Source: Desulfobacterium sp.
GTDB lineage: Bacteria; Desulfobacterota; Desulfobacteria; Desulfobacterales; Desulfobacteraceae
DNA: 51,897 nucleotides
Assembly (NCBI GenBank): GCA_030145245.1
Contig: JAQYWC010000010.1
Coordinates: 1 to 51,897 of the forward strand
Reading direction: 5' to 3'
How positions within the stretch are numbered: position 1 is the stretch's first letter; every line of letters begins with the position of its first letter. Position numbers and translations under genes: made by a program. Below, one piece after another: positions 14,803 through 51,838 of this stretch. Under the pieces are notes generated by a model, which saw only the letters and a list, made by a program, of their open reading frames with translations, was not told the origin of the DNA and made no database searches.

Positions 14803-17078
<2,276 letters not shown>

Positions 17079-17210: not shown

Positions 17211-17230
17211 TATATTCGAAAACGAAAATA
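17211..17230 (-). promoter_or_regulatory. GlpR-like operator upstream of glpF
   Basis: TATATTCGAAAACGAAAATA agrees with the E. coli GlpR consensus WATGTTCGWTAWCGAACATW at 17 of 20 positions by eye, including the full TTCG-N4-CGAA core. A GlpR homologue is encoded at 24872. Repression of glpF by GlpR is therefore likely. Confidence 0.7.
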
Positions 17231-17322
17231 AAGTTCGTTGCTGTACAAACGGTGCTAATTGTTTAATTCTTCTGCATATATTGAGTTTGCTGCTGATAAG
17301 CCAGATTTCGTATCAGCATTGC

Positions 17323-17375
17323 GATTGGAAAAACCCGGGCCTGTAGTTCGTATACGAATATGGGCTTTTCCAATC
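17323..17375. promoter_or_regulatory. Nested dyad with a GlpR-like core between eno and glpF
   Basis: Outer arms GATTGGAAAA (17323-17332) and TTTTCCAATC (17366-17375), then CCC/GGG, enclose a second palindrome GTTCGTATACGAAT (core TTCG-TATA-CGAA at 17347-17358). The inner part resembles a GlpR site; the whole could also fold as the eno 3' stem-loop. It may serve both as an RNA hairpin and as a protein site. Confidence 0.5.
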
Positions 17376-17401
17376 AGAACACTGTTGGGTATTAAGGGGT
17401 T

Positions 17402-18697
<1,296 letters not shown>

Positions 18698-34002: not shown

Positions 34003-36423
34003 ATGAATATCGAAAAATCGTATATCAGAATCAAACAAGCTCAAAATCATATGAAGATATCCGGTAGATTCCCCTGGGTTCAAAAAAGTTTAAAAAGCGT
34101 TCTCTCTCTGACCCTGTTATCATTTGTCTTCTACCTGGTTATCTCGCCTTTGGGTTCGCATGTTAAAGCCTCAGACAAAACAAACCAGATTGTTTTACAA
34201 CTGGCATGGAAACATCAATTCCAGTTTGCAGGCTATTATGCTGCTTTATCAAAGGGCTATTATAAGGAAGCCGGTCTTGATGTGACCCTGGTCGAAGGAG
34301 GAGAAGGACATTTTGCAAGGGAGGAGGTCCTCGGGGGCAATGCCCAATATGGTGTTGCTGGCAGCGAGCTTATTCTTCACAAGGCTGAGGGTAATCCCTT
34401 TGTTGTGTTGGCCCCGATTTTTCAGCACTCCCCGTCCATACTTTTGACCATGGCGAATTCAGGTATTTCAACTTACCCGGATCTTATTGGGAAACGGGTA
34501 ATGCTCTTGCCCGGGAAAAAAGATGCTGATATCCTGGCGGCCTTTCAAAACGAGGGGATCGATATTGATCATGATTCATTCATCCGCATGGATCAGTCAT
34601 ATAATCTGGATGACCTCATTAAAGGCAGAACGGATTCAGTATCAGCCTATGTTACCAATGAGCCGTGGATCCTTGAACAGGCAGGCATAAAACCGGGAAT
34701 TCTTTCCCCCTTGACCTATGGCGTCGATTTTTATAGTGACTGCCTTTTTACAACCGAAGAAGAAATAAACAAGCACCCCGAACGTGTTAGCCGTTTTTTA
34801 AAGGCCACCATAAAGGGATGGACTTATGCCATGGATAACAAGGAAGAAATTATTGATCTTATTATTGATCAATACGGTGTCGACAAGGCAAAGGATCATT
34901 TGCGATATGAGGCAGCAACCATGGAAAAACTAATATTCCCCCATCTGGTGCAGATCGGGCATATGAATCCCGGGAGATGGCGTCATATCGCAGACACCTA
35001 TAACAAACTCGGCATGCTTGAAAACGATTTTTCCCTGGACGGATTCCTCTATGATCCCAATCCCAATCCTGTTCCTGATCATTCAAGGCTTATCGGGGTT
35101 ATTCTTCTCTTATTTATGATCAGCCTAGTGACAAGCATCATCACCATCGTTCTGTCTATTTTCAACAAAAAACTTAAAAAAGAATCCCATGAACGAAAAC
35201 TTGCTGTAAAGGCTCTCCAGGAAAGTGAAGCAAAATTTAAAGAATTCATGTTACACCTTCCTGCCTATGCATTTATAAAGAATAGATCAGGGAAATATTT
35301 ATATGTAAATAAAGCCTTTGGTTTTATAGCAAAATCAAGCCCCCTTGACAGACTTGGAAAAACAGATAACGATATTTTTCAATCCGACATTGCAAAAGAA
35401 TTGAGAGCTAATGATTCAGAGGTGTTCAGAACCTGCAAATCCATTGAAAAGAACGAGACGATTACGGATGCCGATGGAAATTATAGAACGAACCTGGTTA
35501 TTAAATTTCCCATAATCAGGGATGGCGTACCCCTTTTCCTGGGAGGGATTGCCTTTGATGTTACCGAAAGGGTGAAAATGGAAAAAATGCTTGTCCAGTC
35601 CGAAAAAATGCTCTCTGTGGGGGGGCTGGCTGCAGGTATGGCCCACGAACTTAATAACCCCCTGGGCGGAATGATTCAGAATGCACAGGTTATTTACAAT
35701 CGCTTTACAAAGGATCTTCCCGCCAATAGAAAGGCTGCAAATGAGCTTAATATTTCACTGGGCTCAATCACTGACTACATGGAAAAAAGGGAAATTTTAA
35801 AGCTGCTTTCATCCATCGGCGAAGCCGGGGATAGGGCCGCCCATATCGTGGAGAACATGCTCTCTTTTAGCCAGCAGTCCAGACACCATTTTACCCATTA
35901 TAACCTGAGCGATCTTCTTGACAAAACCATTGAACTTGCTGAAAATGATTATAATTTAAAGCAAAAATATGACTTTAAAAAGATAGCAATCACCCGTGAA
36001 TATGAACAATCAATCCCTGAAGTACAGTGCGAGGGGAGTACCATTCAGCAGGTTTTTTTTAACATCCTTAGAAACGGAGCTGAGGCCATGGCTGAATCAA
36101 AAACTCAAATGGAGGAGACACAAGAATCAGAATCCCCATATCCAAAAAATAAATTCATTCTTCGAATAAAAGAGGAAAATGGCTTGGCTTGCATTGAAAT
36201 AGAGGACAACGGGCCCGGTATGGAGGAGGATATAAGAAGACGGATATTTGACCCCTTTTTTACCACAAAACCTATTGGTGTCGGTTCAGGGCTTGGCCTT
36301 TCTGTCTCATATTTTATCATTACCGAAAACCATGGCGGTGAAATAAATGTGAGATCAGAACCTGGAAAGGGAACAACGTTTATCATTCGCCTGCCCTTTG
36401 AAAAAAATAGGGAAACCAAGTAA
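34003..36423 (+). CDS. Sensor histidine kinase with NMT1/THI5-type binding domain and PAS domain
   Basis: The 806-residue membrane protein has a helix at about 31-50, an extracytoplasmic NMT1/SsuA-like domain (about 60-345: VLQLAWKHQFQFAGYYAALS, KGYYKEAGLDVTLVEGG), a second helix (about 358-385), a PAS domain (about 405-525), a HisKA domain with H548 (GGLAAGMAHELNNP) and an ATPase domain with N-box NILRNGAEAM, G1 EDNGPGMEED, F-box DPFFTTK and G2 GSGLGLSV. Binding domains of this fold capture thiamine pyrimidines, taurine or nitrate-like solutes, so a small extracellular ligand likely sets kinase activity. No partner receiver adjoins it. The kinase half closely resembles the protein at 50213. 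Confidence 0.9.
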   Translation: MNIEKSYIRIKQAQNHMKISGRFPWVQKSLKSVLSLTLLSFVFYLVISPLGSHVKASDKTNQIVLQLAWKHQFQFAGYYAALSKGYYKEAGLDVTLVEGGEGHFAREEVLGGNAQYGVAGSELILHKAEGNPFVVLAPIFQHSPSILLTMANSGISTYPDLIGKRVMLLPGKKDADILAAFQNEGIDIDHDSFIRMDQSYNLDDLIKGRTDSVSAYVTNEPWILEQAGIKPGILSPLTYGVDFYSDCLFTTEEEINKHPERVSRFLKATIKGWTYAMDNKEEIIDLIIDQYGVDKAKDHLRYEAATMEKLIFPHLVQIGHMNPGRWRHIADTYNKLGMLENDFSLDGFLYDPNPNPVPDHSRLIGVILLLFMISLVTSIITIVLSIFNKKLKKESHERKLAVKALQESEAKFKEFMLHLPAYAFIKNRSGKYLYVNKAFGFIAKSSPLDRLGKTDNDIFQSDIAKELRANDSEVFRTCKSIEKNETITDADGNYRTNLVIKFPIIRDGVPLFLGGIAFDVTERVKMEKMLVQSEKMLSVGGLAAGMAHELNNPLGGMIQNAQVIYNRFTKDLPANRKAANELNISLGSITDYMEKREILKLLSSIGEAGDRAAHIVENMLSFSQQSRHHFTHYNLSDLLDKTIELAENDYNLKQKYDFKKIAITREYEQSIPEVQCEGSTIQQVFFNILRNGAEAMAESKTQMEETQESESPYPKNKFILRIKEENGLACIEIEDNGPGMEEDIRRRIFDPFFTTKPIGVGSGLGLSVSYFIITENHGGEINVRSEPGKGTTFIIRLPFEKNRETK

Positions 36424-36495: not shown

Positions 36496-36671
36496 GTGGA
36501 TTACAGCCATGGGAGGGGAAACGGTCTTGACAGGGGGCTGCTGGGCGATTATCTTTCCGCATTGTTTGCAATAATCGATATTTTAAGCGAGTTCAGGGAG
36601 GCTTTTCTGGTCCGGGCTGTTGCCAAACCGGAGCGCTTTTTTATGAAGTGGTTGATTAGGAGATGGTCATG
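36496..36671 (+). CDS. Possible small ORF before the ABC exporter genes
   Basis: A 58-residue frame from GTG at 36496 stops (TGA) inside the start of the next gene, overlapping it as ATGA. It contains a hydrophobic run (LLGDYLSALFAIIDILSEF) and a basic tail (KWLIRRWS). No ribosome site is visible, and the frame is open back to the kinase stop. It may be a coupled leader, a remnant or chance. The family is not recognised. Confidence 0.25.
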
Positions 36672-37283
36672 ATCAAAATGGATAAAATCGATCTTGCCTT
36701 TGACGGCAGGGTGCTGTTCAGCGATTTTTCCCTGACCGTGGAAAAAGGAGAGAAGGTGCTCATCTCATCCCCGTCGGGAACGGGGAAATCCTCCCTTGTC
36801 AAGATGATGCTGGGGTTTGTGCGGCCGGACAGGGGCAGGATCGTCATCGACGACCAGGTGCTTTCCCGGAAAACCCTGGCCGCCTGCCGGGGGAAGATCT
36901 GCTATGTGAGCCAGGATGTGGACCTGAGGAATGAGGGGGTGGCGGATTTGATCACCGAGATCTTCTCTTACAGGAGCAATCGTGAGTCCCTCTATACCCC
37001 TGGTGCCCTTGCCCGTGAGATGGAGCTGTTCGACCTTGACCAGCGGGTGCTGAAGAAAACGGTCAGCCAGCTCTCGGGGGGAGAGCGCCAGCGCCTGGGG
37101 GTTATCATCTGTCGTCTTTTGAACCGGCAGATATGGATCCTGGACGAAGTTACCTCGGCCCTGGACGAGACCCTGAAACAACGGGTAATCCAGGCGATGG
37201 CCGACTCCGACAGGACCGTGGTGATCATTTCCCACGATGACCTTTGGAATGCTTCAGGCGCCATCAGGCGGGTTGCCTGGTAA
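36669..37283 (+). CDS. fetA: FetA-like ABC transporter ATPase
   Basis: The 204-residue ATPase is complete for the family: Walker A SSPSGTGKSSL, Q-loop CYVSQDVDL, signature SQLSGGERQRLGV, Walker B IWILDEVTSALD and the switch histidine VIISHDD. With FetB it forms an exporter that raises resistance to iron-induced oxidative stress in E. coli. ATG 36669 lies six bases after AGGAG; the earlier ATG at 36663 directly abuts that site and is less likely. Ten bases separate it from fetB. Confidence 0.85.
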   Translation: MIKMDKIDLAFDGRVLFSDFSLTVEKGEKVLISSPSGTGKSSLVKMMLGFVRPDRGRIVIDDQVLSRKTLAACRGKICYVSQDVDLRNEGVADLITEIFSYRSNRESLYTPGALAREMELFDLDQRVLKKTVSQLSGGERQRLGVIICRLLNRQIWILDEVTSALDETLKQRVIQAMADSDRTVVIISHDDLWNASGAIRRVAW

Positions 37284-37292
37284 GGAGGGAAA

Positions 37293-38066
37293 GTGGAGAC
37301 CGGAACCGTGACCTATGGCAGCCTGTGCTATCTTGTTGTGCTGCTTGTACCCATCATTGCCATAAATCTTAAATTAAAGATCTTTATTAACAAAAAGCTT
37401 GTCTGGGCAGTGTTTCGCATGGTGGTCCAACTGAGCCTTGTGGGGCTGTTTCTCAAGTTTATCTTTGAACTCGACAACCCCTTGATCAATGTCGCCTATG
37501 TCTGCTGCATGATCCTTGTAGCTGCCGTCTCCGGCATCAAGAGCTGCGATATGGAGGGCGCCAGGCTTTTTTTTCCCATATTGGTCGCCTTTGCCCTGCC
37601 AAGTCTTTTTATGCTGGCCTACTTCAACATGTTTGTGGCTGATCTGGATCATCTTTTAAACGCCAGGCACACCATTCCCATTGCCGGCATGCTTCTTGGC
37701 AACAGCCTGAGCAGCATCATCATCGGGGTGAACACCTTTTATAAGGGGGTCAGGGACAACCGGAAAGAGTACCTCTACTCCCTGAGTCTTTCAAACTCAA
37801 GGGTCGAGGCCCTCATGCCCTATTTCAGAAAGGGGCTTCTTGCCGTGGCCAATCCCATGCTTGCCGGCATGGAAACCATCGGGCTTGTGGCCCTGCCCGG
37901 TATGATGACGGGCCAGATCCTGGGAGGCGCCCTTCCCATGACCGCCATCAAGTATCAGATCGCCATCATGCTTGCCATCTTCATGGTCCAGTATCTTGCT
38001 GTGATCCTTGCCATCGTTCTTACCTCCATGCGCTCCTTTGACAGCTATGACCAGTTGATTGCATAA
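37293..38066 (+). CDS. fetB: FetB-like ABC exporter permease (UPF0014)
   Basis: The 257-residue membrane protein has about seven hydrophobic segments and UPF0014/FetB hallmarks: FRMVVQLSLVGLFLKFIF near the N-terminus, IPIAGMLLGNSLS in the middle, and AGMETIGLVALPGMMTGQILGG toward the C-terminus. It pairs with the ATPase just upstream. Translation starts at GTG 37293 behind AAGGAGGG. E. coli FetB is of the same size. A role in iron or other metal export is inferred from the family; a repeat block follows the gene at once. Confidence 0.88.
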   Translation: METGTVTYGSLCYLVVLLVPIIAINLKLKIFINKKLVWAVFRMVVQLSLVGLFLKFIFELDNPLINVAYVCCMILVAAVSGIKSCDMEGARLFFPILVAFALPSLFMLAYFNMFVADLDHLLNARHTIPIAGMLLGNSLSSIIIGVNTFYKGVRDNRKEYLYSLSLSNSRVEALMPYFRKGLLAVANPMLAGMETIGLVALPGMMTGQILGGALPMTAIKYQIAIMLAIFMVQYLAVILAIVLTSMRSFDSYDQLIA

Positions 38067-40625: not shown

Positions 40626-40985
40626 ATGGATGCGACAACTGTCTTATTAGTAGATGATGAGAAGGAGTTCGTGGATACCCTGGCTGAACGGATCGGCATT
40701 AGAAGCCTTTGTCCCCAGGTGGCCTATAGCGGTGAACAGGCCCTGGAGATGATCAGTGACACGGTCCCCGACGTAATGGTGCTGGACCTTAAGATGCCGG
40801 GCATGGGCGGCGCAGATGTCCTTGCCAGGGTCAAGGCCGCCTACCCGGACGTTAGTATCATCATCCTCACCGGCCACGGCGACAAAAAAGACCAGGTCCT
40901 TGTCGAGGGCATGGGCGCCTCGGGCTATTTCCAGAAACCGGTTGATATCGACCTGCTTGTTGCCAAGATCAGGGTTCTTGGCTGA
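40626..40985 (+). CDS. Single-domain response regulator
   Basis: The 119-residue protein is one receiver domain: acidic pair D10-D11, phospho-acceptor D54 (VLDLKMPG), T82 (ILTGHG) and K104 (FQKPVDID). It has no output domain. Sequence details (LVDDEKEFV, TLAER, KPVDIDLL) are shared with the receivers at 43931, 47014 and 48154, so all four form one subfamily and may exchange phosphate with the same kinases. AGGGAGAAG precedes the ATG. Confidence 0.93.
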   Translation: MDATTVLLVDDEKEFVDTLAERIGIRSLCPQVAYSGEQALEMISDTVPDVMVLDLKMPGMGGADVLARVKAAYPDVSIIILTGHGDKKDQVLVEGMGASGYFQKPVDIDLLVAKIRVLG

Positions 40986-41057
40986 CCCAGCATCTGTTGT
41001 AAATATTTCCCCCCAAAAGCAGCGGGTTGGTTTGCGGGAGGGGCAACGATATTTTTG

Positions 41058-41132
41058 TTGACCCTTTGGGATTTTGTTGATAATAAAAAACTGACTGACC
41101 AATCAGTAGAGGTGGCTGATTGAACAGTCAGT
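41058..41132 (+). promoter_or_regulatory. tetR promoter with a long operator dyad
   Basis: TTGACC (41058-41063) and TAATAA (41081-41086) are 17 bp apart. Just downstream are arms ACTGACTGACCAATCAG (41090-41106) and CTGATTGAACAGTCAGT (41116-41132), paired at 15 of 17 positions around 9 bp. A TetR dimer pair bound there would cover the transcription start, so self-repression is likely. Confidence 0.7.
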
Positions 41133-41171
41133 GCCGGAAACGGCTGGGTATAAATATTAAACGGAGCGATG

Positions 41172-41756
41172 ATGTCCAAGAAAGACGATATTCTAAAGGC
41201 TGCAATAACCCTCTTTGCCGACAGGGGATTTCAAGACGCCTCCATGACGGAAGTTGCCAAGATGAGCGGCGTTTCCGGCGCCACTGTATTTTATCACTTC
41301 AAGAGCAAGGAGGCACTGTTCCTCATCGCCCTTGAGACCGTCAAAGACGGCATCATCCAGGAGTTTGACCAGTACCTTTCAGAACACGATTTTGAGTCGG
41401 GACTCGAACTTGCGGAAGGCATAATCTCCTTCTACCTCTATCTTGCCGGAACCATGGAAGAGTGGTTCCTGCTCCTCCACAGCCACTATCCCTACAAACT
41501 TGCCCTGGTCAATGAAGAGTGCCGCAGTCACCTTGAAAAAATATACAACAGCCTTGTGGATATCTTTGAACGTGCAGTTGCCCTGGGCCGGGAGGACGGT
41601 TCCATCAGTGCCGGGGATTCGAGGAAAACAGCCCTGGTGATCTTCTCCATGGTTGACGGCGTGGTCCGGTTCAAGATCTATAACCTTTACGATACAGGTG
41701 CCCTGTTCAATGAACTTATTAATTCATGCAGGAAGATCCTAAAATATAAAATGTAA
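41172..41756 (+). CDS. TetR/AcrR-family transcriptional regulator
   Basis: The 194-residue protein has the N-terminal helix-turn-helix of TetR: ILKAAITLFADRGFQDASMTEVAKMSGVSGATVFYHFKSKEALF (parts: TLFADRGFQD, MSGVSGATVFYHF). The C-terminal ligand domain is all-helical and aromatic-rich. It probably represses itself and the SulP gene 26 bp downstream. Start 41172 is preferred to 41169 because GGAG then sits six bases away. The ligand is unknown. Confidence 0.92.
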   Translation: MSKKDDILKAAITLFADRGFQDASMTEVAKMSGVSGATVFYHFKSKEALFLIALETVKDGIIQEFDQYLSEHDFESGLELAEGIISFYLYLAGTMEEWFLLLHSHYPYKLALVNEECRSHLEKIYNSLVDIFERAVALGREDGSISAGDSRKTALVIFSMVDGVVRFKIYNLYDTGALFNELINSCRKILKYKM

Positions 41757-41782
41757 GATAACTTTAACAATTAGGTGGTTAA

Positions 41783-43909
41783 ATGCTGACAAAATTATTT
41801 CCGTTTCTTCCATGGTTCAAGGACTATGGCGTTGACAAGTTCAGGATCGATTTTTTGGCGGGGCTCACAGTGGCCCTGGTGCTTATCCCCCAATCCATGG
41901 CCTATGCCCAGCTGGCCGGGATGCCCTCCTATTTCGGGCTTTACGCTTCTTTTCTTCCTCCCATGATCGCTGCGCTGTTCGGTTCCAGCCGCCAGCTTGC
42001 AACCGGTCCTGTGGCCGTGGTCTCCCTCATGACCGCAGCCAGCCTCGAACCCCTTGCAACGGCCGGCAGTGAAGGCTTTATTGCCTATGCCATCGTCCTT
42101 GCCTTGATGGTGGGTGTGTTCCAGCTCTCCCTGGGTGTCTTGAAGCTCGGGGTCGTGGTCAATTTCCTCTCCCATCCGGTTGTCAACGGTTTTACCAATG
42201 CGGCAGCCATCATCATCGCCTCCTCCCAGCTTTCCAAGATGTTCGGCGTCTATGTGGACAAGTCCGCTCACCACTATGAAACCATCATCAACGTGTGCAA
42301 GGGGGCAGTTCACTATACCCACTGGCCCACCCTGTTCATGGGTGCTCTTGCCTTTGCCATCATGTACGGGCTCAAGAAGGTGATGCCAAAGGTGCCCAAC
42401 GTCCTTGTGGCCGTTGCCGTGACCATTGTCATCTCCTGGGCCATCGGGTTTGAGCACAACACCCGTGTGGATATTTCTGCCATCGAGTCCCCTGAGGTTC
42501 GCGCCCAGATCGAGTTCTTTAATGACATCAACACACAGATCCCTGTGCTTTCGGACAAACGTACGGTCCAGTCCAATGCCGTGGACGACGCCAAGAAAGC
42601 CAATGATACAATCCTTGAGTTGGATACGGTCCATGACTTCAACGTCACGGCGGTCAAGCTGGAGCGCCAGAAGCACGACGCCCATGTCCAGCGGGAGCAG
42701 TTGAGGGCCCATCTCTTCTCCGGGATTGAGCAGGCGGACGGTTCCTTGAAATTGTACCTCCAGGGCCAGGAGCCCCAGGGTGTTGAAACCGACGGCAGGA
42801 CCTGGCGGATCAAGGTGGGCAACAGACTGCTCGATACCACCAATCTTTTGGTGATGGGCGGTGGCGCTGTGGTCAGCACCGTTCCCAAGGGACTTCCGTC
42901 ACTCAGCATTCCAAAGATCGATATGAAGGTGATCCTCCGGTTGCTTCCCTTTGCTGCCATCATCTCCCTGCTGGGTTTCATGGAGGCGATCTCCATTGCC
43001 AAGGCCATGGCCGCAAAGACAGGACAGCGGCTGGATCCCAACCAGGAACTCATCGGCCAGGGGCTTGCCAACATCCTTGGCGCCGTTGGAAAGAGTTATC
43101 CCACCTCGGGTTCTTTTTCACGGTCGGCGGTTAACCTCCAGGCCGGCGCTGTCACCGGGCTTTCCAGTGTTTTTACAAGTCTTGCCGTGGTTGTGGTTCT
43201 TCTCTTTTTTACCCCCCTTCTCTACCATCTTCCCCAGAGTGTGCTTGCGGCCGTCATCATGATGGCGGTAATCGGGCTTGTCAATGTGTCCGGTTTTATC
43301 CACGCCTGGAAAGCCCAGTGGTATGACGGCGCCATCTCCATCATCACCTTTATCTGCACCCTGGCTTTTGCTCCCCATCTTGACAAGGGGATCATGGTGG
43401 GTGTAGCGTTGTCGCTGGCGGTATTCCTTTATAAGAGCATGCGGCCCAAGGTGCCCTCCCTGTCAAGGTTTGACGACGATGCCCTGCGCTGTTCCGTGAC
43501 CCACGGTCTCCAGGAGTGTGAGTATGTTGATCTTGTCAGGTTCGAAGGCCCCCTGTTTTTTGCCAATGCAAGCTATCTTGAGGACCAGATAAACGACAGG
43601 ATGGAGAACAAGAAAAAATTAAGGGATATCATCATTGTCTCCAACGCCATTAACGACATCGATGCATCGGGTGAAGAGTTGCTTTCCCTTTTGATCGACA
43701 ATGTCAGGAGTGCAGGCGTGGATATCTCGTTTTCAGGGGTTAACGAATCCGTGACCCAGGTGTTTGAACGAACCCATCTCATCGAGAAGATCGGAAGGGA
43801 TCACATCTACACGACCATGGAACAGGCCATATGTGCGGTCCACGAACATGCCCATAAGGATGATCCGGATCACCAGTGCCCGCTTTCAACCACCTGCAAA
43901 CTGGTATAA
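41783..43909 (+). CDS. SulP-family anion transporter with STAS domain and a large internal insertion
   Basis: The 708-residue membrane protein begins with the SulP signature (FLAGLTVALVLIPQSMAYAQ, AGMPSYFGLYASFLPP, GSSRQLATGPVAVVSLM). Residues about 225-360 are a hydrophilic, partly coiled insertion (ERQKHDAHVQREQLRAH) absent from ordinary SulP proteins. The transport domain resumes with VPKGLPSLSIP and TSGSFSRSAVN. A C-terminal STAS domain (about 570-690) has INDIDASGEELL, with the serine that anti-sigma-antagonist-type domains phosphorylate. SulP proteins carry sulfate, bicarbonate or dicarboxylates. It is followed after 21 bp by a receiver fusion, so transport and signalling are probably linked. 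Confidence 0.9.
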   Translation: MLTKLFPFLPWFKDYGVDKFRIDFLAGLTVALVLIPQSMAYAQLAGMPSYFGLYASFLPPMIAALFGSSRQLATGPVAVVSLMTAASLEPLATAGSEGFIAYAIVLALMVGVFQLSLGVLKLGVVVNFLSHPVVNGFTNAAAIIIASSQLSKMFGVYVDKSAHHYETIINVCKGAVHYTHWPTLFMGALAFAIMYGLKKVMPKVPNVLVAVAVTIVISWAIGFEHNTRVDISAIESPEVRAQIEFFNDINTQIPVLSDKRTVQSNAVDDAKKANDTILELDTVHDFNVTAVKLERQKHDAHVQREQLRAHLFSGIEQADGSLKLYLQGQEPQGVETDGRTWRIKVGNRLLDTTNLLVMGGGAVVSTVPKGLPSLSIPKIDMKVILRLLPFAAIISLLGFMEAISIAKAMAAKTGQRLDPNQELIGQGLANILGAVGKSYPTSGSFSRSAVNLQAGAVTGLSSVFTSLAVVVVLLFFTPLLYHLPQSVLAAVIMMAVIGLVNVSGFIHAWKAQWYDGAISIITFICTLAFAPHLDKGIMVGVALSLAVFLYKSMRPKVPSLSRFDDDALRCSVTHGLQECEYVDLVRFEGPLFFANASYLEDQINDRMENKKKLRDIIIVSNAINDIDASGEELLSLLIDNVRSAGVDISFSGVNESVTQVFERTHLIEKIGRDHIYTTMEQAICAVHEHAHKDDPDHQCPLSTTCKLV

Positions 43910-43930
43910 TTTTTAGATAAGGGAGTTATA

Positions 43931-45145
43931 ATGTCTGTCATAACACTATTCAGCGGCAGTTTTTGCGATAATGAGAAGGTCGAGGCATCTCTGGTCGAGA
44001 CAACAGGTTCCACGTTGGTCACAGAGCAGGAGATCGTGGAAAAGGCAAGCAGCCTCTCCTCCATCGGCGTAAAAAAGATCAAGGAGGCGTTCCTCGAAAA
44101 AACGTCGATCTTCAATAAATTCACCCATGAAAAAGAGCGCTCCATTGCTTACCTGCGCCTTGCCCTGGCTGAGATGCTTGCCCAGGACAACCTTGTCATC
44201 ACGGGCTTTCCCGCCCATTTGATTCCAAACAGTATCAGCCACGTCCTTAGGGTATGCCTTATTGCCGAGCTCAAGCATCGGCTTGGCCAGGCGGCAACCC
44301 TTGGCACCGTGGAAAAAGAGGCCCTCAAACTGATCCAGGAGAACGATAAGAACTGTTCAACCTGGGTCAACACCCTTGTCGGCAACAACGATCCCTGGGA
44401 CAAGGCGCTCTATGATATTGTCGTTCCCATGAACACAACCTCTGTTGAGGAGGCGGTTTCCCTCATCAGTGAAAAGTCACAAAGCCCTGCCGTTGCCTCT
44501 TCGGACGCCTCGGCCCAGGCGGTAAAGGATTTTCTCCTGGCCGCAAGGGTTGAGACCGCCCTTGCCGATGAGGGACACAACGTTGTTGTGTCCGCCAAAG
44601 CGGGCAAGGTGGTGCTGACCATCAACAAGAACGTATTGATGCTCAAGCGCCTGGAGGAGGATCTCCAGGCCATCGTCAACAAGATTGAAGGGGTAGAGGC
44701 GGTGGAGACCCAGATCGGTAAGGGGTTTTACCAGACCGATATTTACCGGCAGTTTGATTTTGAAACACCGTCAAAGGTGCTGCTGGTGGATGATGAGCGC
44801 GAATTTGTCCAGACCCTGTCGGAACGGCTGATGATGCGGGAGATGAGTTCGGCTGTTGCCTATGACGGCGAGTCCGCCCTCAGTATTGTGGATGAGGATG
44901 AGCCCGAGGTGATGATTCTGGATCTTAAGATGCCCGGCATCGACGGCATTGAGGTGTTGAAAAAGGTCAAGGCCACCAAGCCCGAGATCGAGGTGATCAT
45001 CCTCACCGGTCACGGCAGCGAGGCGGACAAGAAAGTCTGCATGGATCTTGGAGCGTTTGCCTATCTGCAGAAGCCGGTTGATATCGATCTGTTGAGCAAG
45101 ACCCTTAAGCTTGCCAATGACAAGATCAAGAAACAGGGCGCGTAG
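43931..45145 (+). CDS. Cytidylate-kinase-like/BON-like/receiver fusion protein
   Basis: The 404-residue protein has three parts. Residues 1-180 resemble the cytidylate-kinase-like family (VITLFSGSFCDNEKVEASL at the start, NLVITGFPAHLI in the middle), but the P-loop (SGSFCDNEK) lacks the GxxGxGK[ST] form, so catalysis is doubtful. Residues 196-265 look BON-like (KDFLLAARVETAL, VVLTINKNV). Residues 281-400 are a receiver with D287-D288, D331, T359 and K381. There is no DNA-binding domain. The domain names for the first two parts rest on pattern reading and are tentative; the receiver is certain. Confidence 0.75.
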   Translation: MSVITLFSGSFCDNEKVEASLVETTGSTLVTEQEIVEKASSLSSIGVKKIKEAFLEKTSIFNKFTHEKERSIAYLRLALAEMLAQDNLVITGFPAHLIPNSISHVLRVCLIAELKHRLGQAATLGTVEKEALKLIQENDKNCSTWVNTLVGNNDPWDKALYDIVVPMNTTSVEEAVSLISEKSQSPAVASSDASAQAVKDFLLAARVETALADEGHNVVVSAKAGKVVLTINKNVLMLKRLEEDLQAIVNKIEGVEAVETQIGKGFYQTDIYRQFDFETPSKVLLVDDEREFVQTLSERLMMREMSSAVAYDGESALSIVDEDEPEVMILDLKMPGIDGIEVLKKVKATKPEIEVIILTGHGSEADKKVCMDLGAFAYLQKPVDIDLLSKTLKLANDKIKKQGA

Positions 45146-45158
45146 ATAGATCACCACC

Positions 45159-45209
45159 TATAGATCCTTGCATTCGGATTGATGCCTGCTTTGGGTGCGA
45201 GGATCTATA
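45159..45209 (+). repeat. Intergenic stem-loop before the Cache-type kinase gene
   Basis: TATAGATCCT (45159-45168) and AGGATCTATA (45200-45209) are perfect inverted arms, extended inward to 13 of 14 pairs. No T-run follows. It may end or attenuate the SulP-fusion transcript before the kinase operon. Confidence 0.5.
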
Positions 45210-45277
45210 ATAACGTTGAAACAAGATGATCAGAGGGGAATCGGGACGTCAATCGTCATCCGGAATCGGGGGGTAGT

Positions 45278-47029
45278 ATGTCTGTTGTTGATAAATTGAA
45301 GCCGGCTTTTTTGGAACACCCGGGAACGGGAGAGGTGCGGTATAAGCATACCTTTAACTACCGTAAGATCTGGCAGATGGTGATTCTGCTCACTGCCGCC
45401 GTCACCCTGATTCCCCTGATCATCATCACCTCCATCGATTATAATGTGACCCAGCAGTCCATTGAGTCGGAGATCTCCCTCCGGGCCAGGCGGACCGCCT
45501 CCAACACCAAGCGGGCCATTTCGTTTTTTGTTTCCGAACGCAGGGCGGCCCTGGATTTCATCGTCCATGACAACGGGCTCAAGGCCCTGACCGGTAATGA
45601 GCGGTTGTCCACCATCCTTAAGAATCTTCAGGCCGGGTTTGGCGGGTTTGTGGATATTGGCGTGATCAACGATCGCGGCATCCAGACCGCCTATTCCGGC
45701 ACCTACAACCTTGGGGGACAGGATTACTCGGACCAGGCCTGGTTCACCAAGGTGGTGGAGCGGGGCGTTTATATCAGCGAGGTGTTCCTGGGGTTCAGGA
45801 ACAAGCCCCACCTGGTGATCGCGGTAAAATCCCGGCTGGATCAGGGCGCCTTTTACGTGCTCCGGGCCACCATCGATACGGATCAGTTTAATGAGATCCT
45901 GTCGAGCCTTGAGCTGAACGGCAAGGGGGACGCTTTTCTCATCAACCGCAACCGGGTGATCCAGACGCCCAGCCGTCATCACGGGGATGTGCTTTCCACC
46001 GTTGATATCCCGGTGCCGGAATATTCGGACCGGACCCGGGTGAAGGAGTACCAGAGCCCTGACTACGAGCAGTTTGTGGTGGGTTATGCCTACATCCCGG
46101 ATACGGATTTTATCCTGATGATCGTCAAGCAGAAGGCCGCCCTGATGAAGTCCTGGTATGCGACCCGGTCCAATCTCATCGGGTTCCTCCTGTTGAGCAT
46201 CACCGTGATTCTCGGGGTGATCGTTTTTGTCACCACCTATCTTGTCAACCAGATGTACTTTTCAGACAGGAAGCGGGCCAAGGCCATGCACCGGATCGAG
46301 TATGACAACAAGCTTGCCACCGTCGGCCGGCTTGCCGCCGGCGTTGCCCACGAGATCAACAACCCGCTTGCCATCATCAACGAAAAGGCGGGGCTGATCA
46401 AGGATATCTTTGTTTTCCGGGAGAAGTATTCCGCCGACGACAAGCTCATGGGCCTTGTGGATTCGGTGATCTCATCGGTTGCCCGGTGCGGGACCATCAC
46501 AAAGCGGCTGCTCAATTTTGCCCGGCACATGGATGAATCCTTCCAGACCGTGGAGATCGGTACGGTGATCCGGGAGGTGCTGGGATTTCTGGGCAAAGAG
46601 GCCGAGTACAGAAGCATCGATATCTCGGTGGATGTGCCTGAGACGTTTCCAACCATCGAGTGTGACCGGGGAAAGCTCCAGCAGGTGCTGTTGAACATCG
46701 TGAACAACGCCTTTTTTGCCATCGAGTCCGAGGGCGCGCTCTCCATCCAGGTGAAGCAGCGGGATGATAAGTACCTGACCGTCACCATCTCTGACACGGG
46801 GTGCGGTATTCCCGAAAAGGAGCTGGAACTCATCTTTGAACCGTTCTTCACCAAGAAATCGGATCATGGCGGAACAGGGCTTGGCCTCTCCATCACCTAT
46901 CAGCTCGTGGAGGAGGCAGGCGGCTGTATCAAGGTTCAGAGCGAGGTCGGTGTGGGAACAAGTTTTATCGTGAATCTGCCGTTTAAACCCAAAAAAAGAA
47001 AGGAGGCAAAAACGTGCGAGTCCTTCTAG
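45278..47029 (+). CDS. Cache-domain sensor histidine kinase
   Basis: The 583-residue membrane protein has a helix at about 33-53, an extracytoplasmic dCache-like domain (about 55-285, with GVINDRGIQTAYSG, DYSDQAWF and SEVFLGFRNKPHLVIAVK), a second helix (about 305-328), a HisKA domain with H358 (LAAGVAHEINNPLA) and a full ATPase domain: N-box NIVNNAFFAI, G1 SDTGCGIPE, F-box EPFFTKK and G2 GGTGLGLSI. It should sense a small periplasmic ligand. Its end overlaps the receiver gene at 47014 by 16 bp, so that receiver is its closest partner. Confidence 0.93.
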   Translation: MSVVDKLKPAFLEHPGTGEVRYKHTFNYRKIWQMVILLTAAVTLIPLIIITSIDYNVTQQSIESEISLRARRTASNTKRAISFFVSERRAALDFIVHDNGLKALTGNERLSTILKNLQAGFGGFVDIGVINDRGIQTAYSGTYNLGGQDYSDQAWFTKVVERGVYISEVFLGFRNKPHLVIAVKSRLDQGAFYVLRATIDTDQFNEILSSLELNGKGDAFLINRNRVIQTPSRHHGDVLSTVDIPVPEYSDRTRVKEYQSPDYEQFVVGYAYIPDTDFILMIVKQKAALMKSWYATRSNLIGFLLLSITVILGVIVFVTTYLVNQMYFSDRKRAKAMHRIEYDNKLATVGRLAAGVAHEINNPLAIINEKAGLIKDIFVFREKYSADDKLMGLVDSVISSVARCGTITKRLLNFARHMDESFQTVEIGTVIREVLGFLGKEAEYRSIDISVDVPETFPTIECDRGKLQQVLLNIVNNAFFAIESEGALSIQVKQRDDKYLTVTISDTGCGIPEKELELIFEPFFTKKSDHGGTGLGLSITYQLVEEAGGCIKVQSEVGVGTSFIVNLPFKPKKRKEAKTCESF

Positions 47030-47376
47030 TTGATGATGAAGTGGAATATGTATCAACCCTTGCCGAACGGCTCTCCTTCAGGGGGATCGATGCCAGCTGG
47101 GTATCAAGCGCAAAGGAAGCCCTGGAGCGCATCCGGCAGGAAAGTTTTGACATCGCCGTACTGGATGTGAAGATGCCCAAGATGGGGGGGATCGAGCTGA
47201 AACAGATCATCGAAGAGATCAATCCGGACATGAAATTTATCTATCTCACGGGCCACGGGTCTGAGAACGACTATCAAAAAGGGGTGACCGACGGGGTCTC
47301 CTACCTGATCAAACCCGTTGATATCGATAAGTTGATGACCACCATGAATCAAGCCATGATAAACAGGGGAAGCTGA
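47014..47376 (+). CDS. Single-domain response regulator coupled to the Cache kinase
   Basis: The 120-residue receiver has D7-D8, phospho-acceptor D51 (VLDVKMPK), T79 (YLTGHG) and K100 (IKPVDID), and no output domain. It begins at GTG 47014 behind AAGGAGG, inside the end of the kinase gene, which implies translational coupling. The next gene starts two bases after its stop. Confidence 0.92.
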   Translation: MRVLLVDDEVEYVSTLAERLSFRGIDASWVSSAKEALERIRQESFDIAVLDVKMPKMGGIELKQIIEEINPDMKFIYLTGHGSENDYQKGVTDGVSYLIKPVDIDKLMTTMNQAMINRGS

Positions 47377-47378
47377 CA

Positions 47379-48035
47379 ATGAGCATGGAAACAGAGGAAC
47401 TGGCTGGAACGGGAGTGCGTTACTTTGGGAAGATGATGGCTGCCATCAGCCATGAGATCAAGAATTCCCTTGCCATCATCAATGAAAACGCAGGGTTGAT
47501 GGAGGATCTGAGCCTGATGGCAAAGAGCGGTCATCAACTGGATCCCGAGCGGGTCGGGGCTATCTCCGGCCGGGTGATCAAGCAGGTCCAGCGGGCCGAC
47601 ACCACCGTTAAAAAGATGAACCGGCTGGCCCACAGCGTGGATGATCCCGTCAAAGAGATCGATGTGGCCGACCTCCTGGCTTTCACCATGGAGCTTGGGA
47701 AAAAAACGGTCGCTTCCCTGGGGGTGGATCTTCAGATGACGCCGCCTGCAAGCCCTGTCCGGATCAACTCCAACCCGTTTCTGTTGATGAACCTGATGTG
47801 GGAGGTGATGGGGTATGCCTGCACCAGGGTCAATGGGGCCCCAATTATCACGATCGCCATTGCTAAGAGTGCCAAAGGGGTTGAACTTGTTTTTTCACCT
47901 GTCAGCGATGACGGTCATGACGGATTTTCATTGGAGCAGGCGCCTTTCAGCGGGCTTGTCTCCTGTTTGAATGCCGAAATTTTAGCCCTTGCCGACAGGC
48001 AGGTACTTGTGTTAATTCTTCCTGAAACTGTGTAA
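47379..48035 (+). CDS. Histidine-box protein with degenerate ATPase half
   Basis: The 218-residue soluble protein has an H-box near its start (H25 in AAISHEIKNSLAIINENAG) and a helical dimerisation region to about residue 95, like the HisKA domain of its neighbour (shared INEKAGL/INENAGL). The following 120 residues keep only a shadow of an ATPase fold: an N-box-like MNLMWEVMGYACT, but no DxGxG, no F-box and no GxGLGL. It therefore probably cannot phosphorylate itself and may act as a histidine phosphotransferase between receivers, as in ChpT-like proteins. That role is inference. Confidence 0.75.
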   Translation: MSMETEELAGTGVRYFGKMMAAISHEIKNSLAIINENAGLMEDLSLMAKSGHQLDPERVGAISGRVIKQVQRADTTVKKMNRLAHSVDDPVKEIDVADLLAFTMELGKKTVASLGVDLQMTPPASPVRINSNPFLLMNLMWEVMGYACTRVNGAPIITIAIAKSAKGVELVFSPVSDDGHDGFSLEQAPFSGLVSCLNAEILALADRQVLVLILPETV

Positions 48036-48153
48036 AAAGTGTAACATGAAATTGTTGTGTGCAGTAATCGATGTTTTCGCGACCCCTTATTGTCATGCAG
48101 AACCAAGTTATAACCCGTATAGCTTTTAATATAATTATGAAAGGAGAATTGCC

Positions 48154-48582
48154 ATGTCTGAGAAAATATTATTAGTTGATGATGAAAAAGAGTTTCTGGA
48201 AGCCATGTCCGAGAGAATGACCAACCGGGGTATGGAGGTGACAACAGCACTCTCCGCAAAAGAGGCCATTGAAAAGGTCAAGAATGAGAGCTTTGACGCC
48301 ATCATCGTTGATCTGCTCATGCCGGAGATGGACGGGCTTGAGGCCCTTGAGACCCTGAAAAAGATCAACGCAGACCTTCAGGTGATCCTGCTGACCGGCA
48401 ATGCCACCGTTGAAAAGGGGATCGAGGCCATGAAGCTTGGGGCCATGGATCTTCTGGAAAAACCGGCCGACCTCAATAATCTGACCGAACGGATTAAAAA
48501 AGCCAAGGCCCGCAAGATGATCCTCGTTGAAAAACACACCGAAGAGAAGATCAAGAAGATCATCAGTTCCAAGGGGTGGTAA
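48154..48582 (+). CDS. Single-domain response regulator with C-terminal helix
   Basis: The 142-residue protein is a receiver with D9-D10, D53 (IVDLLMPE), T81 (LLTGNA) and K103 (EKPAD), plus a basic helical tail of about 25 residues (ARKMILVEKHTEEKIKKII). It differs from the other three in ending LLEKPADL rather than KPVDID. AAGGAGAATTGCC precedes the ATG. It closes the plus-strand kinase cluster. Confidence 0.92.
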   Translation: MSEKILLVDDEKEFLEAMSERMTNRGMEVTTALSAKEAIEKVKNESFDAIIVDLLMPEMDGLEALETLKKINADLQVILLTGNATVEKGIEAMKLGAMDLLEKPADLNNLTERIKKAKARKMILVEKHTEEKIKKIISSKGW

Positions 48583-48602
48583 CCGCGTGACCCCGGGTTC
48601 TG

Positions 48603-49874
48603 CTAAAGCCTGTAAACCGTTGGGATTTCATCCTTGTTGATGAAAATTCCAACGGTGTCCCCGGTGCTGAATCCAAGTTCTTTGAACCGGGTGGTAAAGG
48701 CTTCATGCTTGTCAGCGTGCCAGAACACATTCCACATGGGGTTTCTCACCGTGTCGATCCCATAGGCATCGTGGCTGCAGAGGTTGACCCTGAACCTGTC
48801 CTTTGCGATCAGGGTGTCGGCCTCGGAAAGAAAAAAATCTATCTGGTAGAGATTGTTGGTGAGTTCCTTTGCGATCTCCTTCTGGAGTTCCGGGAAATCG
48901 TCAAGGTAGTGGTTGGCGATCTGGTAGAGCTCCTCAGGCTCCTTGATGGACATGCCGAGGATGGCAAACCGTTCGTTGCGCATGGCAAAGGTTTCAAGCT
49001 CCTCCTGGAATGATCGGATCACCTTGATGGCATCCTTAAGGCCCTTTTTCGGATCTACCCCACCCAGAACGATCTCTTCGCATTTGGCTATGACGTTGAG
49101 GTAGATCTCCTTGGTGTTCATCACGTAGATGTTGCGCTCCCGGTAGCTTCTTCGTTTCCGAATCCGCTTGATGCCGTTGAGGCGTATGGAGATGATCCCC
49201 TTTTTCTGCTCAAGGATCTCGATGTTTGAGATGTTCTTTGCCTGGACCACAAAGATCTCACCCATTTCCGAGATGATGTACTCGATTTCGCAGGGAAAAC
49301 CCAGAAGTTCCTGTATCTCCTTGGAGATGGCCATCAGCTTTCGGTCGTGGGGGGTCTTGGTGATATAGGGTTCGGACTGGACCCTGGAAATGCGGTCCCT
49401 GCAGTAGCCGAACTCCCAGTCCCCGGAGATCACCTTGGCCATGACGCTGGAGCCTTCCACAAAGGGCATGACAATGATGCCCATCTCATCAAGGTCTATC
49501 TCGGGTGCGTTGAGGAATTTCTGCTGCCGTTTGATGGACAGAGCCTTGGTGGTGGTTCCCGAGCGGATGATCTTTGATCTGGCATACTTGATCCCCATGA
49601 GGTCGGCATAGGTCTCCATGGAATCGAAGGTCCCGCCCTTGAAACAGTACTCCTGGGGGTGGGCGCTCCGTGCGATCACCTTGTAGTTCTCCTGGTGTTG
49701 GGAGAGGAGATCCTCCAGGGGGCCGAAGTTTCCGGTGTTGAAATCCGCTGCCGAAACATAGATAAAGTCCGGAACGTTGAACCCTTTGCTCTTGAGCTGT
49801 GCCAGAAGCCGGGCCTTGGCCGGAAGTGTCTTGTCTGTGAATGACTCCTTGGTCTCAGTTTCTTCTTTTTTCAT
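48603..49874 (-). CDS. PPDK-N-like (ATP-grasp) protein of unknown role
   Basis: The 423-residue soluble protein resembles the nucleotide-binding N-terminal domain of pyruvate phosphate dikinase/PEP synthase: KVIARSAHPQEYCFKGGTFD (cf. RSSxxxED-type loop), IIVMPFVEGSSVMAKVISGD, EIEYIISEMGEIFVVQAKNI. The phosphohistidine and PEP-binding domains are absent. Residues about 240-423 match nothing I recognise. It could be a nucleotide-binding regulator or a non-canonical phosphotransferase. It converges with the receiver gene at 48582 (20 bp apart). Confidence 0.6.
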   Translation of the reverse strand: MKKEETETKESFTDKTLPAKARLLAQLKSKGFNVPDFIYVSAADFNTGNFGPLEDLLSQHQENYKVIARSAHPQEYCFKGGTFDSMETYADLMGIKYARSKIIRSGTTTKALSIKRQQKFLNAPEIDLDEMGIIVMPFVEGSSVMAKVISGDWEFGYCRDRISRVQSEPYITKTPHDRKLMAISKEIQELLGFPCEIEYIISEMGEIFVVQAKNISNIEILEQKKGIISIRLNGIKRIRKRRSYRERNIYVMNTKEIYLNVIAKCEEIVLGGVDPKKGLKDAIKVIRSFQEELETFAMRNERFAILGMSIKEPEELYQIANHYLDDFPELQKEIAKELTNNLYQIDFFLSEADTLIAKDRFRVNLCSHDAYGIDTVRNPMWNVFWHADKHEAFTTRFKELGFSTGDTVGIFINKDEIPTVYRL

Positions 49875-50212
49875 ATTCCTGCCGTGATCAGTGATGGGGT
49901 TTTAGAGTTATCGGTTTATAACTTTTATGGATACCACTATTTTTCCTGAAAGTACATGGACTCCAATGGATTGGGCGCTTATTTCCGGGATTTGATTTGA
50001 TTTGCACCATAATCTATTGTACTCTTATTTTTGTTGAAATTGACCGGAATATTAAAGTCGTTCTGGTTTTCTCCCCTCGCGATTTTGTATAAATAGATAA
50101 AAGAGTTCGCCAAATCCAAATGCCGGGTTCCTGAACTGAAAAAAAGCTCTGCTTGTGATCGGAATTTTGTTGTGTGTATTGGGTTCTTGCCGGACCTTGA
50201 GAGAGATTTCCC
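49875..50212. other. Divergent intergenic region
   Basis: The 338-bp gap between the PPDK-N-like gene (minus) and the PAS kinase (plus) is AT-rich and has no protein-like frame of note, no clear terminator and no confident promoter. It presumably holds both promoters. Confidence 0.5.
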
Positions 50213-51838
50213 ATGGATGAAAAACCGACCTATGAAGAATTAGAGAAAAGGAATCGAGAATTAGAGCGGGTGGAGTCTGATCGTAAGAGAATCGAGAAGG
50301 CTCTACAGGAGAGTGAGGCCCGATTCCGGTTGCTTTACGAAAGGGCTCCCCTTCCCTACCAATCATTGGATGAAGCGGGTCATTTTATTGCGGTCAATCA
50401 ATCCTGGCTGGATGTTATGGGGTATTCACGTGAAGAGGTTCTCGGAAAATCGTTTGGTGAGTTTCTGCACCCGGACTGGAGGGATCATTTCAAGGAAAAT
50501 TTTCCCCGCTTCAAAGCGGTGGGTGAAATTTTAGGGGTTGAATTTGAAATGATCAAAAAAGAGGGTGCTTTGATACTTGTTTCATTTCACGGGAAGATAG
50601 GGAAAAATAAATATGGAGACTTTCAGCAAACCCATTGCATCTTTCAGGACATCACCGACCGCAGGCGGGCCGAAGATGAACTTCGCCATCTGCGTAACTA
50701 CCTGTCCAACATCATTGATTCCATGCCGTCTGTGCTGGTTGGGGTGGATGCCGAAGCAAAGATAACCCTGTGGAACAAGACAGCGGAAAAAACCACGGGG
50801 GTCATTGGCACCCATGCCCAGGGCAATCCTCTTTCCCACATATTTCCCCGGCTGGCGCCGGAAATGGAAAAAATAACAGATAGCATCCGGACCCGGGAAA
50901 TAAAACAGCATCGGAAGAGAGCCTGTGTTTCTGAAAAGGGGCCATGCTATGAGGATGTGACCATCTATCCGTTGACCGGCGAGGGGTTGGAGGGGGCCGT
51001 TATCCGTATTGACGATGTAACCGAGCAGGTGCGGCTGGAAGAGATGATGGTGCAATCGGAAAAGATGCTTTCGGTGGGGGGACTTGCAGCAGGCATGGCC
51101 CACGAGATCAACAATCCATTGGCCGGCATGATGCAGACCGCCAATGTGATGGCAGGCCGGTTGACCAATGAAAATATGCCGGCCAACCTCAAAGCCGCCA
51201 GGGAAGCCGGCGTCACAATGGCTGCCATCCGGAACTTCATGGAGGCCCGGGGCATACCGCGCATGCTCGCGACCATCAGGGACGCAGGATCAAGGGCGGC
51301 GGAGATTGTGTCCAACATGCTCGGTTTTGCCCGGAAGAGCGAGGCCCAGGTCTCATTCCATGATTTTTCCGGGCTTATCGATAAAACCCTGGACCTGGCC
51401 GCCACCGATTATGATCTTAAAAAGCAATATGATTTCAAGACGATTGAGATCATAAGAGAGTATGAAGCAGCCCTTCCCCCTGTGTTCTGTGAGGGGGGAA
51501 AGATTCAGCAGGTGCTGCTCAATATTTTCAGAAATGGCGCCGAGGCCATGCAGGCGGCCGGAACCGGCAAGCCCCGGTTCATTGTCCGGACGAAATTTGA
51601 AAAAGAGCGGAAAATAGTCTGCATGGAGATCGAAGACAATGGCCCGGGCATGGATGAAGCGATCCGCAAACGGGTATTTGAGCCATTTTATACCACCAAA
51701 CCTGTGGGAGAGGGGACGGGTCTCGGACTCAGCGTGTCCTATTTTATCATTACCGAAAACCATGGGGGCAAGATGGCTGTGGAATCCCAGCCCGGCAAGG
51801 GGGCAAAATTTGTTATCCGCCTGCCCTTGGAAGGGTGA
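50213..51838 (+). CDS. Soluble PAS-PAS sensor histidine kinase
   Basis: The 541-residue protein has a charged coiled-coil start (EELEKRNRELERVESDRKR), two PAS domains (about 30-150, with FIAVNQSWLDVMGYSREE; about 160-280, with ITLWNKTAEKTTG), a HisKA domain with H297 (GGLAAGMAHEINNPLAGM) and an intact ATPase domain: N-box NIFRNGAEAM, G1 EDNGPGMDEA, F-box EPFYTTK, G2 GTGLGLSV. No membrane segment is seen, so it senses a cytoplasmic signal such as redox state. The region between the H-box and N-box is longer than usual and shares EAR/EKR-type helices and DYDLKKQYDFK with the kinase at 34003. No partner receiver follows within the window. Confidence 0.92.
   Translation: MDEKPTYEELEKRNRELERVESDRKRIEKALQESEARFRLLYERAPLPYQSLDEAGHFIAVNQSWLDVMGYSREEVLGKSFGEFLHPDWRDHFKENFPRFKAVGEILGVEFEMIKKEGALILVSFHGKIGKNKYGDFQQTHCIFQDITDRRRAEDELRHLRNYLSNIIDSMPSVLVGVDAEAKITLWNKTAEKTTGVIGTHAQGNPLSHIFPRLAPEMEKITDSIRTREIKQHRKRACVSEKGPCYEDVTIYPLTGEGLEGAVIRIDDVTEQVRLEEMMVQSEKMLSVGGLAAGMAHEINNPLAGMMQTANVMAGRLTNENMPANLKAAREAGVTMAAIRNFMEARGIPRMLATIRDAGSRAAEIVSNMLGFARKSEAQVSFHDFSGLIDKTLDLAATDYDLKKQYDFKTIEIIREYEAALPPVFCEGGKIQQVLLNIFRNGAEAMQAAGTGKPRFIVRTKFEKERKIVCMEIEDNGPGMDEAIRKRVFEPFYTTKPVGEGTGLGLSVSYFIITENHGGKMAVESQPGKGAKFVIRLPLEG

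Follow-up and report, generated by a model that had tools for sequence, protein, structure and literature searches.

The 51,897-nucleotide window analysed here is one whole contig (C5) of a Desulfobacterium sp. genome of 6.4 Mb in 83 contigs, and it carries, at 41169-48582, a run of genes in the order TetR regulator, SulP-STAS transporter, 404-residue fusion protein, Cache histidine kinase (HK1), lone receiver (REC2), kinase-derived histidine protein (HKd) and lone receiver (REC3). This is a sulfate-uptake operon that recurs in sulfate-reducing bacteria; it is real and has in part been described already. Its products may form a four-step phosphorelay spread over separate proteins, in which the fusion would act by protein contact on sulfate uptake, a proposal on which our belief and our doubt are evenly balanced. 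The relay reading draws on good sequence evidence, and the protein-contact output is inferred. An initial annotation of this DNA, made from its letters alone, had read the region as a multi-receiver phosphorelay joined to a SulP transporter, and the gene order found in relatives bears out that the receivers and kinases are a set fit for a relay tied to SulP. The dsrA gene of the genome scores 608 bits against a curated family cut-off of 393, so the organism is very likely a sulfate reducer.

Within the run the genes lie close together, with gaps of 26 bases between TetR and SulP, 21 between SulP and the fusion, 132 between the fusion and HK1, 2 between REC2 and HKd and 118 between HKd and REC3, and the HK1 and REC2 genes overlap by 16 bases. 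Conservation was followed in two collections of loci, which overlap in genomes. Set A holds 80 named loci (L086-L165) from a scan of a genome collection with fusion residues 1-279 as the query; they are the 80 relatives, out of 189, that came highest in likeness, which biases the set to close ones. Set B holds 40 loci around the fusion from the genome's own family (L039-L078). Layouts were counted by tblastn, in position windows rather than by strict adjacency, and only over loci with enough flank, called covered below. Upstream of the fusion, SulP was found in 61/64 covered loci of set A and 26/38 of set B, and TetR in 46/55 and 27/38, respectively. Downstream, the corresponding counts were 64/65 and 32/39 for HK1, 55/60 and 24/38 for REC2, 48/52 and 28/37 for HKd, and 35/44 and 29/36 for REC3. 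Because this order recurs in fusion-holding loci of many Desulfobacterota, the gene set is more than a product of chance. The neighbourhood survey proposed along with the initial annotation, covering SulP, the fusion and the receivers, therefore finds the core genes together in relatives rather than scattered, and adds to them the TetR gene, which was absent from the earlier list and yet belongs to the core.

The association was also read in the reverse direction, starting from SulP in 86 family genomes, where 31 of 52 SulP hits have the fusion within 250 bases downstream. At a SulP identity of at least 62%, a cut picked after the list had been seen, 30/32 are directly followed by the fusion, compared with 1/20 below it; of the two genes above the cut that break this rule, one is followed by the fusion after 1.1 kb and the other shares its contig with no fusion hit. 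Only part of the phylum has the fusion: 37 of 297 genomes spread across it gave a match (E 1e-80; two partial), under 17 family labels. The run SulP-fusion-HK1-REC2-HKd also appears in a metagenome-assembled genome labelled as an uncultured, gammaproteobacterial member of the Ectothiorhodospiraceae (L161), which may reflect transfer or misbinning. At two set-B loci (L060, at 10404-17747, and L061) a solute-binding-GGDEF-EAL protein precedes SulP and the fusion.

The SulP-STAS label given at the outset is upheld by matches to both domains and by a TIGR00815 score of 435.8 bits (cut-off 380.45); sulfate is the probable substrate, judging from the family and from the main text of PMC11887813. The link of the module to sulfate transport extends beyond this one carrier. 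A SulP or DASS gene lies somewhere in the fetched stretch at 76/80 set-A and 39/40 set-B loci. Twelve set-B loci have no SulP just upstream: at 10 of them a DASS gene (Na:sulfate symporter, PF00939) lies no more than about 8 kb from the module, another carries TauE together with an SLC13 carrier, and at the last SulP stands 5 kb upstream. Seven of these 12 loci also have a CBS-domain match and four a TrkH match. Judged from gene counts (52 SulP hits in 86 genomes, six DASS hits in this genome), closeness by chance should be small. SulP and DASS have unrelated folds, with a STAS domain in SulP only, and the domain scan of the set-B loci gave no STAS match on DASS at module loci. Elsewhere, a stretch spanning L083 and L084 (G000:C41:50001-84138) holds two DASS carriers (555 and 617 residues), kinases resembling HK1 and receivers that share 39-42% identity with that of the fusion, with no Cytidylate_kin2 fusion in the gene maps; it is perhaps another sulfate-carrier/receiver cluster.

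The fusion protein combines three regions, modelled by AlphaFold2 with a predicted local distance difference test (pLDDT) score of 85.5. Its N-terminal domain matches Cytidylate_kin2 (PF13189) over residues 29-167 (E 1e-14, 55.5 bits against a cut-off of 28), an alignment profile of this domain finds the putative kinases 3fdi and 3hdt, and Response_reg is matched at residues 283-392 (E 1.9e-27). By its sequence the kinase-like domain is a pseudokinase that has lost Walker A, since the P-loop motif G-x4-GK was found in none of 112 fusions (103 distinct) within the first 130 residues searched. The motif is kept in 6/15 unfused Cytidylate_kin2 frames of the family, so its loss is not limited to fusions. 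The loop FNKFTHEKE, nearly invariant among fusions and modelled with low confidence at residues 60-64, may be a site of contact or of ligand binding. Residues 192-262 were modelled as helix-strand-strand-helix-strand, which is the order of a BON domain; sub-threshold matches to BON (PF04972) were obtained for 11/18 relatives at E up to 5 (best E 7.3e-5; 0.009 for the window protein), and the best match of this region in the Protein Data Bank is a weak one to OsmY (E 0.13). We call the middle domain BON-like only.

The idea that unfused Cytidylate_kin2 proteins generally lie beside ion transporters was dropped, as their neighbours in this genome are mixed: one pair sits by an SLC13-TrkA_C carrier and others by a MacB-type permease, aldehyde dehydrogenase or radical-SAM genes. 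One such locus (L079; G000:C15:184000-203000) comprises an NtrC-type regulator, an SLC13-TrkA_C carrier, two unfused Cytidylate_kin2 proteins, two lone receivers and a kinase. It also holds an 829-residue protein with PPDK_N and phosphoenolpyruvate (PEP)-utiliser domains, so that a PPDK-type protein is again found near cytidylate-kinase-like ones.

Four receivers had been placed in the region with phospho-acceptors D54 (REC1, an extra lone receiver upstream of TetR), D331 (fusion), D51 (REC2) and D53 (REC3), and the translations confirm these positions, as does alignment for D54 and D331. Their description as closely related suits REC1, which is 52% identical to the fusion receiver, and applies more loosely to REC2 (41%) and REC3 (37%). 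All fusion receivers (103/103) retain the acidic pair and the phospho-Asp, as well as the Thr and the Lys. For lone receivers, residue and tail-length counts refer to frames preselected at no more than 200 residues; in these the D and T residues of REC2 are retained in 68/68 and its Lys in 67/68 (one gap), and the phospho-Asp in 80/82 REC3-like receivers. As originally annotated, no receiver in the window carries a DNA-binding domain, winged helix included, or a known enzymatic output, on the evidence of Pfam and of length: the lone receivers measure 119, 120 and 142 residues, and the fusion ends with its receiver. Median tails after the conserved Lys are 16 residues for REC1, 21 for REC2, 40 for REC3 and 27 for the fusion, the largest being 75. 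With no length filter applied, receiver frames downstream of the fusion are at most 200 residues long in 93/94 cases in set A and 54/57 in set B; the 4 of 151 that exceed this are found in L092 and L073 and as the NtrC-type regulators of L060 and L061. In a FastTree tree built from 65 receivers and read without support values, the REC2, SulP-type REC3 and fusion types are largely separate, and REC3-like receivers fall into several groups.

On the kinase side, the window does contain the two full kinases first reported, HK1 and, near the contig end, the PAS-type HK2, both with HisKA and HATPase_c. In HK1, the H-box His, N-box, G1 Asp and G2 Gly are retained in 90-91 of 91 relatives, and its sensor domain has no relative among solved structures at E 0.01. 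The histidine-box protein described as lacking ATPase motifs corresponds to HKd, and the description is accurate: HKd matches HisKA weakly (E 1.8e-4, below the Pfam cut-off) and no HATPase model, and among its relatives the ATPase boxes D.G.G and G.GL[GS][LM] survive in 3/80 and 0/80, compared with 90/91 and 88/91 for HK1. The N-box Asn is mostly replaced in these relatives, and His25 is kept in 80/80 distinct ones. The AlphaFold2 model of HKd (pLDDT 92.2) has two long helices and a kinase-like fold; the 50 Foldseek matches listed for it are histidine-kinase-type entries, including DivL and RetS, with ChpT and Spo0B not named among those 50. Within its own genome, the sole other protein matched by HKd at E 1e-6 is HK1, at 24% identity. 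These features make HKd a candidate phosphotransferase of the ChpT/Spo0B/PhyT type.

HK1 and HKd were also compared at the helix stretch from +8 to +20 after the His, the site where two-component partner specificity is read. There, HK1 and HKd of the same locus share a mean identity of 54% over 63 loci (lowest 31%), as opposed to 24% over a longer stretch, and ten other kinases of the same loci show a mean of 13% and at most 23%. This likeness fits docking of both proteins to one receiver.

The relay might then run as follows. The dCache domain of HK1 would sense a ligand outside the cell, for which the main text of PMC11887813 offers sulfate as a guess, and HK1 would autophosphorylate and pass the phosphate to REC2. 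His25 of HKd would take the phosphate from REC2 and hand it on to D331 of the fusion and to REC3, the latter serving as a second output or as a phosphate sink. The phosphorylated fusion would alter the state of its pseudokinase-BON part, and that part would influence sulfate uptake through protein contact, with the neighbouring transporter as its likeliest target; TetR would set the expression of the operon from its own palindrome. A bolder version, which we hold to be somewhat less likely than not, makes a transporter rather than a promoter the end point of the relay: the phosphorylated fusion would be a transporter-gating adaptor for unrelated sulfate carriers (SulP, DASS, perhaps SLC13 and TauE) in many Desulfobacterota. 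If that were true, sulfate reducers would set sulfate uptake fast, without new transcription.

Several observations weigh against a relay of this kind. REC2 is missing from fusion loci in 5/60 covered cases in set A and 14/38 in set B, and HKd in 4/52 and 9/37; in L060 and L061, SulP and the fusion are followed by an NtrC-type DNA-binding regulator (REC-sigma54-HTH_8) that replaces HK1-REC2-HKd. Plain descent could account for the way HK1 resembles HKd at the docking stretch, and the H-box Glu and Asn retained by HKd could serve a phosphatase role. All 50 Foldseek matches listed for the whole fusion model contain receivers, and therefore the fold assigned to residues 1-270 rests on sequence profiles. 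The direction of phosphotransfer, the ligand and the target are all putative.

A phosphatase role is the core of one rival account, in which HKd is a dedicated phosphatase or decoy, and REC2, the fusion and REC3 each receive phosphate from HK1 in parallel, in a branched system with no relay. The H-E-x-x-N positions serve phosphatase activity in HisKA kinases and are retained in HKd, whose docking stretch also resembles that of HK1. However, phosphatase activity of the HisKA class does not need the His, which HKd keeps in every relative (80/80). A lone receiver, a degenerate kinase and an output receiver moreover make up the layout of the PhyT and Spo0B relays (PMC5898713, in excerpt), and we consider the parallel scheme possible but rather improbable. 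Transcriptional control, as proposed in the main text of PMC11887813, would have the Cache kinase switch the promoters of the transporter genes through response regulators, there labelled WalR type, and TetR would add a further layer of control. Some related loci do have DNA-binding regulators (REC-sigma54-HTH_8 in L060 and L065, PAS-sigma54-HTH_8 in L075), and the receivers may reach DNA by a detour, through contact with TetR. However, the receivers at this locus are without a DNA-binding domain, so WalR-type promoter action fails for them, and 147/151 downstream frames of sets A and B together are no longer than 200 residues. The same main text reports SulP and DASS to be abundant and constitutively formed in Desulfosarcina variabilis, so that control of activity fits better than control of amount, and we regard promoter control as unlikely here.

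Two further readings follow from the initial annotation. It had named the STAS domain as a possible specific target of the receivers, and the position of SulP just upstream of the fusion in 61/64 covered set-A loci speaks for it; in set B, however, that holds in only 26/38, and DASS accompanies the fusion in 10 of the other 12. Because the same fusion module also lies beside DASS, a target confined to STAS is quite unlikely, and one that serves sulfate uptake in general is the likelier choice. It had also treated all of the listed genes as one set, including a PPDK-like protein and HK2, and this reading is highly implausible. The genes do adjoin on this contig, and the PPDK-like gene stands divergently upstream at 4/48 covered loci of set A and 5/35 of set B; downstream it was found at 0/43 and 2/35. 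However, this gene is present in 43/86 family genomes, where, judged by eye, it frequently lies on a different contig or at a great distance from the fusion, and for HK2 the nearest kinase in two same-genus loci (L039, L040) is only 28% identical, its docking helix matching HK1 at 1 of 13 positions. With the PPDK-like gene often unlinked in relatives, by eye, and the docking helix of HK2 unlike that of HK1, both were rejected as parts of the system, HK2 being probably an unrelated neighbour. The core run thus stands as a recurring set, and the genes starting at 40626 (REC1), 48603 (PPDK-like) and 50213 (HK2) fall outside it.

Of the operon's proteins, TetR alone has a recognised DNA-binding domain, and a candidate operator precedes its gene. 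The exact sequence ACTGANNNNTCAGT occurs no more than 300 nt upstream of TetR at 25/52 set-A and 5/25 set-B loci having a TetR frame, and elsewhere in 1.77 Mb in four copies, some perhaps before TetR genes missed by the gene maps; the window holds one copy, at 41094. A search of the window for palindromes with at most one mismatch returned none, the operator copy here being an imperfect palindrome, and a longer operator pattern with two mismatches gave three matches in the window where 1.66 are expected by chance (23 of 100 shuffles reach three). For the window copy, which we treat as a candidate, position and conservation alone speak. A 16-bp palindrome upstream of TetR is reported in the main text of PMC11887813. 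Promoter and terminator scans of the window were no richer than shuffles (6 versus 6.8 and 9 versus 11.0).

Of the neighbours, REC1 was considered as a core part and rejected, as REC1-like receivers lie upstream in 0/49 covered loci of set A and 2/35 of set B and were seen in close relatives only; the alternative of a simple, recent duplication of the fusion receiver is unsupported, the tree placing REC1 beside and not inside the fusion group. The PPDK-N-like protein has only a sub-threshold match, to the tail of PPDK_N, and has no relatives among solved structures at E 1. Further upstream in the window (34003-36423), a substrate-binding region of NMT1/THI5-like type, a PAS domain and a histidine kinase were recognised by eye in a protein whose H-box region resembles that of HK2; genes labelled FetAB-like, also by eye, adjoin it at 36663-38066. 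The features are collected below; all named genes are open reading frames at these positions, and their classes were confirmed by Pfam.

Table 1. Operon genes, candidate operator and flanking genes in the window
Feature	Position	Strand	Basis or remark
REC1, extra stand-alone receiver (D54), upstream of TetR	40626..40985	+	Pfam
Candidate TetR operator GACTGACCAATCAGTA	41093-41108 within 41093..41133	+	Second imperfect copy at about 41113-41133
TetR-family regulator	41169..41756	+	Pfam TetR_N, E 1.4e-15
SulP/SLC26 anion transporter, 708 residues, C-terminal STAS	41783..43909	+	Sulfate_transp E 1.5e-103, STAS E 1e-14
Fusion: pseudo-cytidylate-kinase 1-183, BON-like about 192-262, receiver 280-404 (D331)	43931..45145	+	Pfam, AlphaFold2
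HK1: dCache, HisKA and intact HATPase_c	45278..47029	+	Pfam
REC2, stand-alone receiver (D51), start overlaps HK1 end	47014..47376	+	Pfam
HKd, kinase-derived histidine protein, degenerate ATPase domain, His25	47379..48035	+	Candidate phosphotransferase
REC3, stand-alone receiver (D53), short tail	48154..48582	+	Pfam
PPDK-N-like protein	48603..49874	-	PPDK_N tail match, sub-threshold, E 0.0022
HK2, PAS-PAS, HisKA and HATPase_c histidine kinase, near contig end	50213..51838	+	Pfam

The initial annotation knew of no described system with this set of genes, but the cluster as such is known. The main text of PMC11887813 (Sci Adv 2025) outlines sulP and DASS sulfate-transporter clusters of the Desulfobacteraceae, the sulP cluster holding TetR and two-component genes and having a DASS counterpart. 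It shares with the present locus SulP, TetR with an upstream palindrome, a Cache sensor kinase and response regulators, as well as a DASS counterpart that includes CBS proteins. The two accounts differ in the regulators, which that main text takes to be of WalR type acting on promoters, whereas the receivers here are without a DNA-binding domain. Set against the same text, the degenerate kinase as candidate phosphotransferase and the receiver fused to a pseudo-cytidylate-kinase/BON-like part are additions from the present locus; the terms 'phosphorelay', 'receiver', 'STAS' and 'cytidylate' appear nowhere in it. Likewise, response regulators and histidine kinases go unmentioned in the main text of PMC5840216. 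Among the literature matches listed, no title or abstract start describes a SulP phosphorelay, by which absence in print is not established, and 'cytidylate kinase-like' has no uses. What the present analysis adds is thus the relay anatomy, the receivers without DNA-binding outputs and the pseudokinase-BON-receiver fusion.

Dissimilatory sulfate reduction begins with sulfate uptake, and this step may be tuned by protein contact. At this locus and at most of the related ones examined, the receivers possess no domain with which to bind DNA themselves, and the anatomy points to a relay with protein output in many Desulfobacterota that would be common to two transporter families. The control of sulfate uptake thereby becomes testable with five purified proteins.

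Among other relays, KinA-Spo0F-Spo0B-Spo0A works through a dimeric histidine phosphotransferase that is built like a kinase but whose C-terminal domain does not bind ATP, and the final regulators Spo0A and CtrA bind DNA. ChpT of the CckA-ChpT-CtrA relay (PMC3433190, in excerpt) is likewise a dimer of this build, with a C-terminal domain that binds no ATP and without autokinase activity, and HKd resembles these proteins in keeping its His while lacking the ATPase boxes. PhyT is described as a phosphotransferase of suspected kinase origin (PMC5898713, in excerpt), so that, with PhyT and ChpT, the kinase-derived kind of phosphotransferase is already known. The SdrG-PhyT-PhyR system of Sphingomonas, as given in the same excerpt, is like the present locus in having a stand-alone receiver, a kinase-derived phosphotransferase and an output receiver, but its output is the PhyR/NepR/EcfG general stress response, with no transporter. 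A parallel for the output is EpsW-EpsZ of Myxococcus (PMC12802240, in excerpt), where a single-domain response regulator acts post-translationally by contact with an enzyme; the target there is a phosphoglycosyl transferase, and neither a pseudokinase fusion nor a transporter takes part. If the relay proposed here is true, a post-translational transporter output would be added to the kinds of phosphorelay already known.

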